From: Actinocatenispora rupis
Lineage (GTDB): Bacteria; Actinomycetota; Actinomycetes; Mycobacteriales; Micromonosporaceae
Direction: 5' to 3'
Assembly (NCBI RefSeq): GCF_016861975.1
Contig: NZ_BOMB01000003.1
Location: 124,001 to 188,000, forward strand
Length of the DNA stretch: 64,000 nucleotides
Part shown: piece by piece, positions 25,019 to 32,076 of the stretch
How positions within the stretch are numbered: the stretch's first letter is position 1
Layout of the letters: every line of letters begins with the position of its first letter
The notes under the pieces: generated by a model
Told to the model about the DNA's origin: nothing
Seen by the model: the letters and a program-made list of their open reading frames with translations, nothing else
Databases searched by the model: none
Program-made: the position numbers and the translations under genes

Positions 25019-25120
25019 AGGGCTCCTCGGGTCCTCGGCATCGGTACGGCCGGGCGCCCCACGGTACCCGGCACGCGGCCGGATAACCTGGTCCGTCGGA
25101 CGTACGAGGGGGCGGCAGCG

Positions 25121-25972
25121 GTGGCAGGCCGGCACGACGACACGGGGCAACGGAACCCGAAGGACACGTTCATCACGGTGTACGGCCGGATGCCCGTGCT
25201 GGAGGTGCTGTCCGACCGCGCCCTGCGCGTCGACAAGCTGGTCGTCGCGGACTCCGCGCGCGGCGGCAACCTCGACCGGATCCTCGACCTCGCCGCCCGC
25301 CAGGGCGTACCGGTGCGGACCGCGCCGGCTCAACGGGTCAAACTGCTCGCCGGCAACGGAAAGCACGACCAGGGCATCATCGCCGACGTGGTCGCGCCCC
25401 GGATGCGCGGCCTCGCCGAGTTCGTCCGGAGCATACGGTCCGGGGGCCGGCACGACGTGCTGATCCTCGACGGCGTCAACAACCCCGCCAACGTCGGCAT
25501 GATCATCCGTACCGCGACCGCGGCCGGTGTGTCCGCCGTCGTACTCCCCCGCGCCGGCTCCCCCGACATCGACCCGCTCGTCATCAAGGCGTCCGCGGGC
25601 GTCGCGTTCCGCGCGTCCATCGTGCGCTGCCGTACCGCGGCCGAGGCGGTGCGCGAACTGTCCCGCATCGGCTTCCGCGTGCACGGGCTGTCCGGCGACG
25701 GCCGGTCCACCCTCTACCGCGAACGGTTCCCCGGACTGTCCGCGTTCGTCCTCGGCAACGAGACCGAAGGGCTGTCCCGCGAGACCGCCGAGCTCGTCGA
25801 CCGCTGGATCTCCATCCCGATGGCCGGCGGCGTCGAGTCCCTCAACGTGGCCAGCGCCGCCGCCGTCCTCTGCTTCGATCTGGTACGCCGCGCCGAGGAG
25901 CGCGCCGACGCCCCCGCCGACCGCCCGCGCCCCACGCGCCAGACACGTCCCCCGGCGCGCCGCCGCCGCTGA
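25121..25972 (+). CDS. SpoU/TrmH-family RNA 2'-O-methyltransferase
   Basis: 283 aa from GTG 25121 after GAGGGGG. N-terminal substrate-binding domain (25-100, YGRMPVLEVL... GKHDQGIIADV) and SPOUT knot with the three SpoU motifs: NNPANVGMIIRTA, FVLGNETEGLS, IPMAGGVESLNVASAAAVL. It methylates a ribose 2'-OH on rRNA or tRNA, as RlmB or TsnR-like enzymes do; some relatives give thiostrepton-type resistance. The target cannot be chosen from sequence. TAACCT at 25084-25089 is a possible -10. The C terminus is basic (Arg/Pro-rich). Confidence 0.92.
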   Translation: MAGRHDDTGQRNPKDTFITVYGRMPVLEVLSDRALRVDKLVVADSARGGNLDRILDLAARQGVPVRTAPAQRVKLLAGNGKHDQGIIADVVAPRMRGLAEFVRSIRSGGRHDVLILDGVNNPANVGMIIRTATAAGVSAVVLPRAGSPDIDPLVIKASAGVAFRASIVRCRTAAEAVRELSRIGFRVHGLSGDGRSTLYRERFPGLSAFVLGNETEGLSRETAELVDRWISIPMAGGVESLNVASAAAVLCFDLVRRAEERADAPADRPRPTRQTRPPARRRR

Positions 25973-26021: not shown

Positions 26022-27272
26022 TCAGGTGGCTACCGGCGCCACGGTGAGGGTGCCGGCGGTGGCGTCGAGGGCGGCGGACACGCCGAGCGGTACCGGGGCC
26101 GTGACGCCGCCGAGTACCGGAACGCCCAGGTCGGTGAGGCGGTCGGCGAGCACGTCGACGAGCGTCCAGCCGCGGTCCTCGTACCCGTCGAAGCCGGGAA
26201 ACCGGCCCAGCACCACCCCGCGTACGCCATCGAGGAGGCCGGACCGGCGCACCTGCGTGAGCTGCCGGTCGACCTCGCCGAGGCCGATCACGCGCGGGTC
26301 CGTCAGGTACAGCAGCGCACCGTCGAGGCGCGGCGGATCCACGCCGAGCGTGCCGCGCAACCCCGCCAGGCTGCCACCGAGCAGCGTCCCCTCGGCACGC
26401 CCCGCCACCGACACCGCACCCGACGGTACTGCCCGGTCGCGGTGCAGCGTCACCGACTCGGCGCCCGTCACGAGCGGACGGAGCGCGGTGGTGGGCTCGC
26501 CGTACACGGTGGGGATCCGGCCGGCGCGCCACAACGCCAGATGCAGCCGGGTCGCTACGCCGATCACCAGCTTCGGATCGCGGCACGCGGCGGGCAGATC
26601 GATCCGGTCCACCAGCCGGCCGCCCCGGCGCTCGACGATGCGATGGTCGGGAACCGGGCCGGGCGTCACGACCGCACGTACCCGGGGGTCACGCAACGCG
26701 GCGTCGACCGCCGCCACCCACGCCTCCCCCGCCCGCGCCACCGACCCCCGACCGGCACGCCCCACGCGGGGATCCGCACCTTCCGACGCACGATCCGCAG
26801 GTACCGCAACGGATTCCCGTCCCGTCTGCGCACGATCCTCGCTCACCGCACCGGATTCCCGTTCCGCCCACGCACGATCCGCGCTCACCGCAACGGACTC
26901 CCGCCCTGCACGCGCACGGTCCTCATTCACCACAACGGATTTCCGACCCGCCCTCGCACGATCCTCGCTCACCGCACCGGATTCCCGTCCCGCCCGCGCA
27001 CGATCCGCGCTCACTGCAACGGATTCCCGCCCTGCACGCGCACGGTCCTCATTCACCCCAACGGATTTCCGACCCGCCCTCGCACGATCCGCGCTCACCG
27101 CACCGGATCCCTGCCCCGCCCGTGCGGCGGGCGCGTCCGGGACGGCGATCTCCACCTGGAGGCCCCAGTCGGCCAGGAGACGCGCGATCGCGCTCAATGG
27201 AGCCGGATCCGCACCCACCGGCGGTACGACGCGGACCACGTCGCCGGCGCGCAGCCGCCGCGGCGCGGTCAT
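26022..27272 (-). CDS. Catalytically dead S66 (LD-carboxypeptidase) paralog with an inserted repeat domain
   Basis: 416 aa from ATG 27272, which overlaps the stop of the intact paralog (ATGA). Residues 1-50 and 180-416 align with the neighbour at 27269-28177, but all three catalytic positions are gone. The nucleophile motif GFSDIT is replaced by GVAT (238-241, two residues shorter), the Glu of IEDN is Thr324 (LTDP), and the His segment LPFGHLPDQ is reduced to VTAPVP. Residues 52-163 are eight 14-residue repeats (AGRESVAVSADRAR type), replacing the loop YLAGRDRDRLADLN of the neighbour. The frame stays open across the repeats. Likely a regulatory or binding partner of the active enzyme, or a decaying copy. 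Confidence 0.8.
   Translation of the reverse strand: MTAPRRLRAGDVVRVVPPVGADPAPLSAIARLLADWGLQVEIAVPDAPAARAGQGSGAVSADRARAGRKSVGVNEDRARAGRESVAVSADRARAGRESGAVSEDRARAGRKSVVVNEDRARAGRESVAVSADRAWAERESGAVSEDRAQTGRESVAVPADRASEGADPRVGRAGRGSVARAGEAWVAAVDAALRDPRVRAVVTPGPVPDHRIVERRGGRLVDRIDLPAACRDPKLVIGVATRLHLALWRAGRIPTVYGEPTTALRPLVTGAESVTLHRDRAVPSGAVSVAGRAEGTLLGGSLAGLRGTLGVDPPRLDGALLYLTDPRVIGLGEVDRQLTQVRRSGLLDGVRGVVLGRFPGFDGYEDRGWTLVDVLADRLTDLGVPVLGGVTAPVPLGVSAALDATAGTLTVAPVAT
26784..27119 (-). repeat. 42-bp coding minisatellite, 8 units, with 126-bp higher-order period
   Basis: Eight in-frame 42-bp units code 14-residue repeats. Units 2-4 (RKSVGVNE, RESVAVSA, RESGAVSE) recur as units 5-7 (RKSVVVNE, RESVAVSA, RESGAVSE), so a 126-bp block was duplicated; for example CCCTGCACGCGCACGG occurs at 26904 and again exactly 126 bp on at 27030. 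Local GC looks lower than in neighbouring genes. Confidence 0.9.
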
Positions 27273-28177
27273 CGACGCACCGCCGTGGTGAGGGTGCCGG
27301 CGGTGGTGTCGAGTACGGCGGGGGCGCCGAGTGGCAGGCAGGTCTGGTCGGGCAGGTGCCCGAACGGCAGCCCGGCGAGCACCGGTACGCCGAGCGCGCC
27401 GAACCGGTCCCGGCACACCGCGGCGACGGCCGCCCGGTCGGCGTCGGAACCGGCGGGTCCGAGGTCGCCCAGCGCGATCCCGCGTACGCCCGCCAGCGCG
27501 CCGGATCCGCTCAACTGCGCGAGATGCGCGTCGAGGCGGAGGGGGTCGGCGCCGCACCGGTTGTCCTCGATGCACAGTAGCGCGCCGGTCAGGTCGGGCA
27601 GTCCGGCGCCGACGAACCCGACGAGCGCGCTCAGGTTGCCGCCGAGCAGTCGGCCCGTCGCCCGCCCGGGTACGACCACGTCGGCGAGCGGCGCGGCCGG
27701 ATCCCGGCGTACGGTGACGGGTTCGTCGGTGGTGAGCAGCCGGCGCGCGGTGCGCACCGCGTCGGAGCCGGAGAGGCAGCCGTGCACGGTCGGCAGCCCG
27801 CATCGCGCCCACAGCGCCAGATGCAGGTTGGTGATGTCGCTGAACCCCACCACCGGTTTCGGGTCGGCTCGCACCGCGTCGACGTCGATCCCGTCCACGA
27901 TCCGGTACGCCCCGGCACCGCCCCGCGTCGCCACGATCCCGCGTACGCCCGGGTCGCGGAACGCGTCGTTGAGGTCGGCGAGCCGGTCGCGGTCCCGGCC
28001 GGCGAGGTAGCCGCGCCGGTCGAGGGCGTGCGCGCCGGCCTCGACCCGCAGGCCCCAGCCGGTGAGGACCCGTGCCGCGTCGGCGAGCCAGTCGGCCGGC
28101 GGCCAGCTCGCCGGCGACACGAGCCGTACCCGGTCGCCGGGCCGGATCCGGGGCCACCGCAGGACATCCGCAGGCAT
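27269..28177 (-). CDS. LD-carboxypeptidase, peptidase family S66
   Basis: 302 aa. Intact S66 catalytic set: nucleophile Ser113 in VVGFSDITNLHLALW, Glu204 in LCIEDNRC, His274 in PFGHLPDQ; E. coli LdcA uses Ser106 in GHSDFT, a Glu and a His. The RGGAGAYRIVD segment matches the RGGYGASRLL motif. S66 enzymes cut L,D-peptide bonds in muropeptide recycling (LdcA) or inactivate microcin-type peptide-nucleotides (MccF). Which applies is unknown. ATG 28177 lacks a strong binding site. The downstream paralog overlaps it by 4 bp. Confidence 0.9.
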   Translation of the reverse strand: MPADVLRWPRIRPGDRVRLVSPASWPPADWLADAARVLTGWGLRVEAGAHALDRRGYLAGRDRDRLADLNDAFRDPGVRGIVATRGGAGAYRIVDGIDVDAVRADPKPVVGFSDITNLHLALWARCGLPTVHGCLSGSDAVRTARRLLTTDEPVTVRRDPAAPLADVVVPGRATGRLLGGNLSALVGFVGAGLPDLTGALLCIEDNRCGADPLRLDAHLAQLSGSGALAGVRGIALGDLGPAGSDADRAAVAAVCRDRFGALGVPVLAGLPFGHLPDQTCLPLGAPAVLDTTAGTLTTAVRR

Positions 28178-28345: not shown

Positions 28346-29440
28346 TCAGGCGAGGGCGGTACGGGACCAGTCGGCGAGCAGGGTGACGACGGGGGTCAGG
28401 GCGGCGACGACGGCGGCCGGCGACGTCTGCGTCCGGTACGCGGAGGAGCCGAGGTCACCGCGGACCGCGCGCCCGACGTACGCCGGGGCGAGCCAGGCGT
28501 ACTTGGCGGCGCCGCAGCGGGCGACGGCGGCGCGTACCGCGTCGGGCCGGCCGGTCCAGCCGCCGTCGCGGAGGCCGTCGAGGTACCGGTCGGTGGCGTG
28601 GGTGGCGAGGTCGGGCAGCAGCGCGGAGTCGAGCAGCCCGTCGGTGAAGCTGTCGAGTACCAGGTTGGCGAGGTCCTCGCCGAGCGCGCCGGTACCGACG
28701 AACGACCAGTCGAGCAGGACGGGCCCGGTGTCGGCGGCGAGCAGGTTGGCGGGCCAGACGTCGAGGTGGCAGAGGGTGGGTTCGGCGGCTTCGGCGGCGG
28801 CGAGCGCCCGGTCCCGGTGGGCCCACAGCCGGCGCAGCTCCTCCCGTACGGCCCGGGGCCAGGCGGCGAGCAGCGGGTGGTCCCAGTCGGCGTCGCGTAC
28901 GTCGACGGAGCGGCTCGGCCCGTCGGTGAGGTAGCCGCCGAGCCAGCGCCGGGACAGCCAGCCGTACTCCGGGGTCCGCCCGGCCCAGCGCGCCTGCCCG
29001 ACGCCGAGCCGGTACGCGAATCCGGCGAGGTCCGGTACGGGCCACTCGAAGCCGTCGGTGCCGGTGACGTCGGCGAGCCACAGTTCGACGGCGCCGTCGC
29101 TGCGGTCGGCGGACGCGAGCAGGTCGGGTGCCGCGATCCCGCCCGCCGCGTACGCCGAGCCGGCGAGCCCGCTCCGGTACGCGAGGGCCTCGCGCCGCCA
29201 GTGGTTCCAGTGGGTCGGTTCGTCGCTGGTCGGCCAGTAGCCGCCGGTGGGTCCGGCGGGCGGCCGGGCGACCTTGAGGACGGCGCTGCCGCGGGTGCCG
29301 CGGATCCGCCAGATGCCGGCGGTGGCGTCGTTCTTCGCATTGTGCCGCAACGGTTCCGCGGCGACCACCGGGCCGACCGCACCGGGCGGCCGGGCGGTGC
29401 GCACGGTGTCGGGGAGTACGCCGGGCTCGTGGTGGGTCAC
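28346..29440 (-). CDS. Aminoglycoside phosphotransferase-like (APH) kinase
   Basis: 364 aa from GTG 29440. Protein-kinase-like fold: a nucleotide-binding N lobe with VLKVARPPAG, catalytic loop LCHLDVWPANLL (Asp and Asn), and metal-binding LLDWSFVGTGALGEDLANLV. This group (APH/choline kinase) phosphorylates small hydroxyl-bearing molecules; members in actinomycetes include resistance enzymes and many of unknown substrate. No resistance gene neighbours. The 168 bp between it and the S66 gene hold nothing clear. Confidence 0.88.
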   Translation of the reverse strand: MTHHEPGVLPDTVRTARPPGAVGPVVAAEPLRHNAKNDATAGIWRIRGTRGSAVLKVARPPAGPTGGYWPTSDEPTHWNHWRREALAYRSGLAGSAYAAGGIAAPDLLASADRSDGAVELWLADVTGTDGFEWPVPDLAGFAYRLGVGQARWAGRTPEYGWLSRRWLGGYLTDGPSRSVDVRDADWDHPLLAAWPRAVREELRRLWAHRDRALAAAEAAEPTLCHLDVWPANLLAADTGPVLLDWSFVGTGALGEDLANLVLDSFTDGLLDSALLPDLATHATDRYLDGLRDGGWTGRPDAVRAAVARCGAAKYAWLAPAYVGRAVRGDLGSSAYRTQTSPAAVVAALTPVVTLLADWSRTALA

Positions 29441-29548: not shown

Positions 29549-30328
29549 GTGAAACGGATCTTGGTGGCGGCCGGGGTGGCACTGCTGACGCTGACCTCCG
29601 CCTGCGGTACGACGGATGCCACGTTCCGGCCGGCGCGGCCGATGGACAAGAGCATCGAGAAGTTCGACCTGGACACGGTCGACGGGATGCACGACGGGAA
29701 GCAGCAGATCGGCGACGGCTGGGGCGCGACCCGCATCACCCGCGGCGACGTGTACTTCGCGGACGTGGACGCCGACAACGTCGAGGACGCGCTCACCTCG
29801 TACACGACGAACGGGGGCGGCAGCTCGTCGTTCACCGACTGGTTCGTGTACCGCGGGGGTGGGCCCGGGAAGGTGCACAAGGTGCGGCGGCCGGTGCTGT
29901 CCGGCTTCGAGGACGCCAGCTACGTCGAGCGGGTGCGGCCGGTCCGCGGCGGCTTCGAACTGCACTACTACGTGTGGGACGGCCGCGACTGCAACGCCTG
30001 CGACAACCGGGTGCCGGCCACCATGACGGTCGCGTTGCGGGACGGCTTCCCGGTGCGGGTGAAGCCGCGCTTCGGCGCCCCGCAGACGTGCTACGTGCCG
30101 ATGATGCCGCACACCGCGGCCGTGCACGGCCGCCTCACCGTACGGGTCGCGCCGGATCCGAAGGCGCCGCAGGTCACCGCGGCGCGGGCGTACACGTCGG
30201 CGCGGTTCGCCGATCCGACCGCGGATCCGGACCTGCCGGGCGACATCCACTGGGTACTCGCGCTGCTGTCCGGCGGCGGTGACCCGGTGTGCGGCTGGGT
30301 CCGGGCGAGCGACGTGGGGCTGTCGTGA
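29549..30328 (+). CDS. Lipoprotein coupled to a membrane Hsp70-like protein
   Basis: 259 aa from GTG 29549, apparently leaderless. Signal peptide with lipobox TLTSAC, Cys19. The exported part has an FADVDADNVEDALTSYTTNGG stretch like FG-GAP or calcium-loop repeats, two Cys pairs (DCNACDN, QTCYV...PVCGW) and a C-terminal SH3-like segment (VHGRLTVRVAPDPKAP, GWVRASDVG). No named family recognised. The stop overlaps the Hsp70-like gene (GTGA), so a stable partnership outside the membrane is likely. Confidence 0.75.
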   Translation: MKRILVAAGVALLTLTSACGTTDATFRPARPMDKSIEKFDLDTVDGMHDGKQQIGDGWGATRITRGDVYFADVDADNVEDALTSYTTNGGGSSSFTDWFVYRGGGPGKVHKVRRPVLSGFEDASYVERVRPVRGGFELHYYVWDGRDCNACDNRVPATMTVALRDGFPVRVKPRFGAPQTCYVPMMPHTAAVHGRLTVRVAPDPKAPQVTAARAYTSARFADPTADPDLPGDIHWVLALLSGGGDPVCGWVRASDVGLS

Positions 30329-32076
30329 CCGACCGGCTCGCGATCGACTTCGGTACGTCCACCACGGTCGCGGTGGTCGGCGGTGCCGACCGCACCCGTA
30401 CGGTGCTGTTCGACGGGGCGCCGCTGCTGCCGTCCGCCGTGTACGCCGGGCCTGGCGGCGAGCTGTACACCGGGCGCGACGCGGTGCACATGGCGCGGCT
30501 CGACCCGGCCCGGTTCGAACCGAACCCGAAGCGCCGCGTCGACGACGGTACGGTCCTGCTCGGCGACCGCGAGTACCCGGTGGTGGGGTTGGTCGCGGCG
30601 GTGTTGGGACGCGTCGCGCGGGAAACCGTACGGGCGGTCGGCGCGCTGCCACCGGCGATCCTGACCTGCCCGGTCGGCTGGGGCGCCACCCGCCGCGGCA
30701 TCCTCACCGACGCCGCCCGGCGCGCCGGCCTCACCGTACTGGGGCTGGTGACGGAGCCGGTCGCCGCCGCGGCGTACTTCACCGGCGTGCTCGGGCGGCG
30801 GCTGCCGGTGGGACACGGGCTGGTGGTGTTCGACTTCGGCGGCGGCACGCTCGACGTCGCCGTGCTCCGGCACGCCGCGGACGGCGACACCGTCGTCGGT
30901 TCCGGCGGCCTCGACGACCTCGGCGGCCTCGACTTCGACGCCGCGGTCGTCGACCACCTGCTGGCCCCGCTGCCCGACGGCCGGCGCACCGTGCCCGACG
31001 TGGCCGCGCGGCAGGCGTTGTGGGCCGACGCGCGCTCCGCGAAGGAGATCCTGACCCGGGCGTCGACCGCGGCGGTGCAGGTGCCGGGCCGGCCCGCCGG
31101 TACGCACCTGACGCGGGCCGAGTTCGAGACGCTGGCCCGGCCGCTCGTCGACCGCGCGGTCGCCGCCACCGTGCGCATCGTCCACGACTCCCGGGTACCA
31201 GCGGGCGCGCTGGCCGGGGTGCTGCTCGTCGGCGGCGCCAGCCAGGTACCGATGGTCGCGGGGGCGCTGCACACCGCCACCGGCGTCGCGCCGACCGTAC
31301 TGGAGCAGCCGGAGCTGGCCGTCGCCGAGGGCGCGCTCGCCGCCGACGCCGGCACCGCGCCGCTGTCGGCCCGGGCCGAGGCGGCACTCGACGCGCTGTC
31401 CGCACCGCGCTCCGCCGTGCCGGTACCTGAGGCCGTACCGGAGTCGCCGTCGCGCCGCCGGGTGCTGCTGCCGGTGGCGGCGATCGCCGTCGTCGCCGCG
31501 CTGCTCGCGCTCGGTACCACCGCCCTCGTCCAGCGGTACGCCCGCGCGGACGGCGGGGGCGCGCCGTCGTCCGGCGGGCACCCGACACCCAGTCCCAGCT
31601 TTCGGCCGGTCGAGCCGAGCGCCCTCGCCAGCGCCGCGCTGCGGGACTTCGTCCACGGCTGGGACGCGTACGGGTGGTCGGGGGCGGACGGCTGCCGGGT
31701 CGTCCACGACGAGCCCGAGTACCAGCCGGACGGGCACGTGCACAACCCGCGCGCCACCGAACCGCTGAGCACGCCGGTCGAGACCGTGCACTGCCGCGCC
31801 GGCACGGACCTGGAGGTCGTGTTCGCCCGGTACGCCAGCCGGCAGGACGCCCGGGCGGTGTTCGACGCGTACCGGGCGAGCGGCACGGACGTCGCCGCCT
31901 CCGGCGCCGACCTGCCGGGCGGGGCCGCACCGACCGGCGAGGCGTTCCAGCTGAGCCGATGGACCTCGACGACGCACGCGCTGGTCTGGACGCGGCCGGA
32001 CGCCGCCGCCGTCGGCTACCTGAGTACCGGTGGCAACGCGGACCTCGCCTGGAACTGGCGCAAGTTCGCCGGCTGA
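30325..32076 (+). CDS. Membrane-anchored Hsp70-like ATPase with an extracytoplasmic domain
   Basis: 583 aa from GTG 30325. Residues 1-350 are an Hsp70/actin-type ATPase: IDFGTSTTVAVV (phosphate 1), ILTCPVGW, VFDFGGGTLDVAVL (phosphate 2) and GVLLVGGASQVPMV (adenosine). The substrate-binding domain of DnaK is missing; instead there is one transmembrane helix near 379-400, a Ser/Pro/Gly linker and an exported domain of about 150 residues with two Cys and many Trp. It could convey a wall or envelope signal to an ATP-driven cytosolic switch. Role unknown. Confidence 0.85.
   Translation: MTDRLAIDFGTSTTVAVVGGADRTRTVLFDGAPLLPSAVYAGPGGELYTGRDAVHMARLDPARFEPNPKRRVDDGTVLLGDREYPVVGLVAAVLGRVARETVRAVGALPPAILTCPVGWGATRRGILTDAARRAGLTVLGLVTEPVAAAAYFTGVLGRRLPVGHGLVVFDFGGGTLDVAVLRHAADGDTVVGSGGLDDLGGLDFDAAVVDHLLAPLPDGRRTVPDVAARQALWADARSAKEILTRASTAAVQVPGRPAGTHLTRAEFETLARPLVDRAVAATVRIVHDSRVPAGALAGVLLVGGASQVPMVAGALHTATGVAPTVLEQPELAVAEGALAADAGTAPLSARAEAALDALSAPRSAVPVPEAVPESPSRRRVLLPVAAIAVVAALLALGTTALVQRYARADGGGAPSSGGHPTPSPSFRPVEPSALASAALRDFVHGWDAYGWSGADGCRVVHDEPEYQPDGHVHNPRATEPLSTPVETVHCRAGTDLEVVFARYASRQDARAVFDAYRASGTDVAASGADLPGGAAPTGEAFQLSRWTSTTHALVWTRPDAAAVGYLSTGGNADLAWNWRKFAG

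Follow-up and report, generated by a model that had tools for sequence, protein, structure and literature searches.

A catalytically dead S66 paralog beside its active partner in Actinocatenispora rupis: putative subunits of one peptidase

The DNA analyzed here—a stretch of 64,000 nucleotides from Actinocatenispora rupis, referred to as the window—carries two genes of the S66 (LD-carboxypeptidase) family in tandem, of which the active one comes first and the catalytically dead paralog starts at its stop (Table 1). Both gene boundaries and the overlap had been given exactly in a preliminary description of this DNA, and the shared ATGA suggests coupled translation. The two proteins are 41% identical over 257 aa, with a separate N-terminal match of 37 columns. 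No signal peptide is evident by eye in either of them and, hence, cytoplasmic action is expected.

Table 1 Coordinates of the S66 gene pair and its parts within the window
Feature	Position	Strand	Remarks
Active S66 peptidase (partner subunit), 302 aa	27269..28177	(-)	Domains and Ser113/Glu204/His274 present
Aligned catalytic Ser113 codon (GFSDIT)	27839..27841	(-)	
Glu204 codon of active copy	27566-27568	(-)	
His274 codon of active copy	27356-27358	(-)	
C-domain segment C2 of active partner, residues 209-262	27392..27553	(-)	Lost residues conserved in single-copy relatives
ATGA stop/start overlap, 4 bp	27269..27272	(-)	Between active and dead genes
Catalytically dead S66 paralog, 416 aa	26022..27272	(-)	Ser to Ala, Glu to Thr, His loop deleted
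Eight 42-bp (14-aa) in-frame repeats, dead gene	26787..27122	(-)	Residues 51-162; 126-bp higher-order unit
C2 of dead copy, residues 330-382, GLGEVDRQLT...DVLADRLTDL	26127..26285	(-)	Kept as in single-copy relatives

As far as sequence can tell, S66 membership of the active subunit is clear from its Ser-Glu-His triad and from both domains, which score above the Pfam cut-off (S66N, 120.9 bits; S66C, 84.8 bits). In the window's dead copy, the S66C domain exceeds this cut-off (7e-14, 52.9 bits), while the S66N match comprises the second half only and stays below it (0.0078); among the four dead copies of relatives that were scanned, S66C lies above the cut-off in all and S66N in three. The NCBIfam model of muramoyltetrapeptide carboxypeptidase matches the active and dead subunits with 115.6 and 29.1 bits, against a cut-off of 378. 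The dead subunit thus belongs to the S66 fold by its S66C domain and by the structure matches described below, but does not carry the triad. This loss had been read correctly from the window beforehand—Ser by GFSDIT to GVAT, Glu by IEDN to LTDP, and His by LPFGHLPDQ to VTAPVP—and the alignment places A/T/gap opposite S/E/H. The dead copies of six relatives bear G/T/gap (four genomes), G/D/gap (G044), and G/T/Q (G053) at these positions.

The repeat block of the window's dead gene, on which the preliminary description was silent, sits between the first β-α-β unit and the remainder of the protein. It is specific to the window: the 42-bp unit is missing from the dead copies of the six relatives, and elsewhere in the window's genome a single weak 38-bp match is found. 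Such an eight-unit repeat is possibly a strain-variable site. In the AlphaFold2 model, the repeat is predicted with low confidence and the S66 part mostly with values above 90, except for residues ~201-220. Hence, the earlier statement that the paralog keeps its fold-defining strands applies to most of the fold, but not to residues ~48-176. For the dead protein of G322, which comprises 211 aa, a pLDDT of 95.3 is predicted, and its model matches 47 S66 chains with TMq values of 0.65-0.85 on its own length; in Foldseek searches, MccF chains are the top matches for both dead-subunit models. The confident G322 model suggests that the dead protein could form a subunit that is stable even if the first unit of the N-domain is missing.

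In 354 genomes of the family, presumably Micromonosporaceae, the paralog minus its repeat block served as the first query, followed by a profile built from six dead copies. The dead-clade profile finds seven of the 354 genomes (genus codes g1, g3, and g30) at 281-395 bits, followed by a next score of 214; the next 23 ranked loci (L051-L073), read individually, all bear the triad. A profile of the seven intact partners finds the same seven genomes at 471-569 bits, with the next score at 340. These scores arise partly by construction, as six of the seven dead copies and all seven partners were part of the profiles; the dead copy of G063, which was held out, reaches 281 bits versus 214 for the next enzyme. 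In these genomes, neither clade hence occurs without the other, as judged by profile score—and a random absence of the dead copy, named earlier as an outcome that would speak against a functional pair, is not what this distribution looks like. Dead and partner genes are adjacent and overlap in all seven genomes, as ATGA in the window, as GTGA in G044, and as TGATG in the other five; the start codons of the dead genes were chosen by the analyst, and upstream GTG codons are present in four of them. A chance pairing in a single genome is ruled out by this recurrence.

The pair is known from these seven genomes only, four of which are mutually close in both genes. By score, no further dead copies are present in 394 genomes sampled from the class and 397 sampled from the order, two sets that partly overlap. 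The pair is likewise absent by score from the three congeners examined, where other S66 genes are present, and it is accompanied by two to four further S66 genes in each of the six relatives and by two in the window's genome. Both observations mark the pair as accessory rather than core.

In the six relatives, the dead proteins measure 202-281 aa. In five of them, the first ~66 residues of the S66 N-domain are gone, while G063 keeps an N-domain stub and carries a low-complexity insert of its own—parts of the N-domain were hence lost in differing ways among the dead copies. In the dead copy of G063 (L026, 1078-1920), the insert consists of SETCG repeats between the domains, at a site that differs from that of the window repeat. 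An S66 fold that is confidently predicted without a triad might also belong to a protein that acts alone, e.g., as a muropeptide or peptide binder that is merely co-expressed with the peptidase, and stand-alone dead S66 proteins in nine g3 genomes indicate that dead S66 folds can persist by themselves. However, the paired dead copies never occur without their own partner clade, by profile score, in 354 genomes; in addition, their nucleophile elbow is changed, and five of the seven have no first N-domain unit, making an independent role quite improbable.

Purifying selection acts on the dead gene, for the most part less strongly than on its partner, as judged from dN/dS, from an excess of differences at codon position 3, and from stop-free frames in comparison with a simulation. 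A dN/dS near 1 had been named in advance as speaking against a functional pair; instead, the values for the dead copies lie at 0.27-0.58 and below 1 in all 21 pairs by the NG86 method, which alone covers all pairs and probably suffers from a base-composition bias. The 21 partner pairs show 0.15-0.51 by the same method, and the dead copy exceeds its partner in 20 of the 21 comparisons; for the four close genomes, the values are 0.27-0.41 (dead) and 0.15-0.23 (partner). YN00 returned values for three of the 21 dead pairs (0.11, 0.11, and 0.17) and for six of the 21 partner pairs (0.06-0.17), and in the three pairs common to both the dead copy is higher in two and lower in one. In all eight dead pairs tested out of 21, differences are more frequent at codon position 3 than at positions 1 and 2 (p 0.0044 to 7.8e-8), including the window copy versus G044 (p 7.8e-8) and G322 (p 1.2e-5).

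All seven dead copies are free of frameshifts and internal stops, in agreement with the intact frame described for the window copy—a TGA flagged in G053 is the regular stop at the end of the gene. In DNA of 75% G+C, open frames by themselves carry little weight; yet, a neutral simulation on the seven-tip tree of the dead copies at 74% G+C yields 14 stops on average and not a single stop-free outcome in 1000 runs. An ordinary pseudogene next to its parent would fit the lost triad and the faster evolution, but none of the 1000 neutral runs stayed stop-free over seven tips, the gene is kept beside its partner in seven of seven genomes, and its motif is conserved across three genera, which leaves this reading with hardly any credibility. 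The simulation, the codon-position bias, and the retention beside the partner in 7/7 genomes together exclude a decaying pseudogene.

A different matter is whether the family is functional while the window's own copy is on its way out. This copy forms the longest branch of the dead clade, carries the eight-unit repeat and a deleted His loop, and shows NG86 dN/dS values of 0.42-0.56 in its six pairs. Still, its C2 segment is largely intact, there is no stop or frameshift, the excess at position 3 holds versus G044 and G322, and the 42-bp repeat unit preserves the frame. A local decay is, hence, very unlikely.

In a tree of 45 proteins—the repeat block was excised from the window row beforehand—the dead copies form one clade (99/97) and the partners another (100/98). 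Both clades branch alike, as window,(G044,(G063,(G037, G053, G322, G323))), where the order within the last four genomes differs between the clades or is weak. The branch of the window's dead copy measures 0.69 and 0.79 in two trees. A joint clade of dead copies and partners is not rejected in the 45-protein tree (AU p 0.304). In a larger tree, to which an enzyme of Nonomuraea and two additional stand-alone dead rows were added, the partners and the dead copies form one group with the enzymes of Nonomuraea and Promicromonospora and a fifth member (96/97), with the dead clade placed beside the Nonomuraea/Promicromonospora group (91/83). Here, uniting the dead copies with the partners alone costs 6.6 log units and comes close to being rejected (AU p 0.055), and a p of 0.082 is obtained if Nonomuraea is included. 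From this placement and the AU p of 0.055, the dead copy may not derive from its partner, and its donor is uncertain.

A second type of dead S66 protein was observed in genus g3 (L034 and L117-L124 in genomes G047, G048, G007, G034, G061, G012, G006, G044, and G039). In all nine, Ser is replaced by Arg, Glu is kept, and the His loop is deleted, with no other S66 gene within ~1.5 kb. The three that are included in the tree form one clade (100/100), apart from the paired dead clade.

Among single-copy S66 enzymes, the nearest ones found come from Nonomuraea (L125) and from six genomes of the order (L132-L137); all of them bear the triad, and their identity to the active subunit of the window is 56-59%. 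Following the catalytic Glu, they have in common a segment of the C-domain with the elements GLG, DR.LT, GRFPGFE, DR.W, and DV..DR, which is mostly present in the dead copies and missing from the partners. This contrast can be counted by calling a reference residue kept if at least five of the seven copies bear it. Relative to 11 near single-copy enzymes (80% columns), 30 residues of the N-domain are kept by the partners only and none by the dead copies only, while in C2 (209-262) one is partner-only and 11 are dead-only (Fisher 2.8e-9; within the C-domain alone, C2 versus the rest, p 0.006); the segment borders were drawn after the alignment had been seen, so that these p values are indicative. 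With the seven nearest enzymes as reference (85% columns), the counts are 50 partner-only and three dead-only in the N-domain and one and 15 in C2; with the full set of 31 single-copy enzymes in the tree, they are 29 and 0 in the N-domain and only one partner-only and five dead-only in C2. The same is seen in the identities to the seven nearest enzymes across N1, N2, C1, C2, and C3, which are 30, 49, 54, 63, and 47% for the dead copies and 60, 71, 53, 38, and 53% for the partners. The N1 side of this contrast is near trivial, as five of the seven dead copies do not contain that stretch. In the window's dead copy, the C2 residues are largely intact. A new substrate could be an alternative cause of the changed C2 in the partners.

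The losses of the two copies are, hence, complementary, which points to a dead subunit that makes up for the losses of the active copy rather than to one that merely regulates it. A pure regulator—an inhibitor, chaperone, or assembly factor that binds the active protein and remains outside of the catalytic unit—would fit the co-occurrence and the overlaps equally well, and the higher NG86 dN/dS of the dead copy in 20/21 pairs also agrees with it. It does not predict, however, that the partner loses C-domain residues that the dead copy keeps, and we consider it unlikely. The proposal of a pseudoenzyme subunit in the preliminary description thus stands as far as a conserved paired gene that is no pseudogene is concerned, given co-occurrence and dN/dS, whereas its regulatory version is disfavored by the complementary loss.

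The 15-kb neighborhoods of the six relatives delimit the conserved unit: nucleotide matches above 60 bp lie within the two genes (~1.55 kb) and reach at most ~45 bp past them. The edges of homology are equally tight between G322 and G323, which belong to one genus. Translated searches (tblastx) return 187 segments outside the pair; among the 39 matches listed, these span 15-73 residues and are scattered, and they are read as noise from G+C-rich frames. Five neighbors in the window—ORFs resembling an APH kinase, a methyltransferase, an ABC transporter, a MarR protein, and Hsp70—gave one match in the six neighborhoods, of ABC type and with 33% identity. An all-against-all comparison of mechanically picked ORFs yielded, besides S66, the same ABC pair and one pair with 35% identity (L104/L106); the picker missed many genes, the window's pair included. 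The six neighborhoods thus give no sign of a conserved wider operon. Scans for tRNA genes, promoters, and terminators found nothing.

An APH-type kinase (28346-29440, minus strand) and a SpoU methyltransferase (~25100-25972, plus strand; RlmB-like below cut-off and also TsnR-like) flank the pair in the window. Among the three congeners, one holds a weak counterpart of the kinase (37%), and the best matches of the methyltransferase reach just 31-32%; the region is hence probably accessory. Further along the plus strand (30289-32076) lies an ORF that by eye resembles an Hsp70/actin-type ATPase; behind this part come a transmembrane helix and an unassigned outer part.

Sequence identities bear on how the pair has moved, taking as reference the best-scoring other S66 gene of each genome, whose orthology is assumed. 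Between G037/G053 (g3) and G322/G323 (g30), identity amounts to 87-90% for the partners and to 78-81% for the dead copies, compared with 54-57% for the other S66 gene; within one genus, G037 and G053 show 89, 81, and 69%. This excess between g3 and g30 is as expected from transfer of the pair as a unit. For partner, dead copy, and other S66 gene, the values are 60, 52, and 53% between window and G044, 60, 51, and 62% between window and G322, and 62, 58, and 63% between G037 and G044. With little or no excess in the comparisons that involve the window, G044, or G063, transfer is visible among four genomes only. The pair hence seems to be horizontally transferred as a unit between no fewer than four of the seven genomes, while for the deeper branches common descent and old transfer would fit alike. 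Plasmid records gave 10 matches, none of which reaches at least 60% identity; the best match in this collection is the Nonomuraea enzyme, a single active gene. The respective record (NZ_LT559118.1, L125) comprises 11.85 Mb and is filed as a plasmid, and it is probably a chromosome.

Taken together, the two genes probably encode the catalytic and the non-catalytic subunit of one heteromeric S66 peptidase, a judgment that rests mainly on co-occurrence and complementary loss. In the proposed course of events, the ancestor would have been an S66 enzyme, likely homodimeric as is the known LdcA, whose gene was duplicated. One copy would have retained the catalytic N-domain with the triad and lost the conserved C-domain segment; the other would have retained this segment and lost Ser, Glu, and His and, in most members, also the first part of the N-domain. 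If each protomer of the homodimer needed the C2 of its mate, co-expressed copies would have been free to lose opposite halves. The dead subunit would then supply C2 to the active subunit, resulting in a heterodimer with one active site, where C2 might take part in binding the substrate or in contacts between protomers. With the start of the dead gene overlapping (ATGA, GTGA, or TGATG), translation of the two genes would be coupled and the synthesis of both subunits, thereby, balanced. The more specific course—an obligate heterodimer that arose by complementary degeneration and then spread between genera as a two-gene cassette—is offered tentatively, with the odds slightly against it. The substrate might be a muropeptide or a peptide antibiotic; given that the pair is accessory, a special substrate, e.g., a peptide antibiotic in the manner of MccF, is as likely as a role in recycling.

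Dead enzyme paralogs are common; to our knowledge, there are few cases where the sequence reveals which function went to which copy. As single-copy relatives with both features exist, the supply of C2 by another protomer is directly testable. If C2 is indeed supplied in this way, this would reveal the task of that segment in LdcA and MccF enzymes.

LdcA acts in the cytoplasm, in muropeptide recycling, and LdcA enzymes in general are homodimers encoded by one gene. The active subunit has the fold and the triad of LdcA (Escherichia coli 5z01, Pseudomonas aeruginosa 1zrs). In contrast to the identical subunits of LdcA, a second and dead subunit with complementary losses is present here. MccF—the immunity peptidase against microcin C—is likewise encoded by a single gene, as far as is known, and its subfamily bears a long loop insertion. 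It shares fold and family with the pair and provides the top Foldseek match of the dead models, yet its chains comprise 336-371 aa versus 302 aa for the active subunit. A modelled LdcA has also been described as dimeric (PMC11375863). Among the literature matches listed, from a search that leaves subscription journals mostly outside its coverage, there is no S66 heteromer or pseudoenzyme.

Works-like models are found elsewhere. In Helicobacter pylori, the active peptidoglycan peptidase of the M23B pair Csd1/Csd2 heterodimerizes with a paralog that bears incomplete metal ligands, as reported (PMC5053510). This resembles an active and degenerate pair, albeit in another peptidase family and with a zinc site. 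ADAT2/ADAT3 of eukaryotes combines an active with an inactive paralog in a heterodimer whose pocket lies in the dimer interface, whereas the bacterial counterpart TadA is homodimeric (PMC9643335); this second works-like model is an unrelated enzyme, and a eukaryotic one. By analogy, the putative working mode of the S66 pair is better matched outside of its family, by Csd1/Csd2 and ADAT2/ADAT3, than within.
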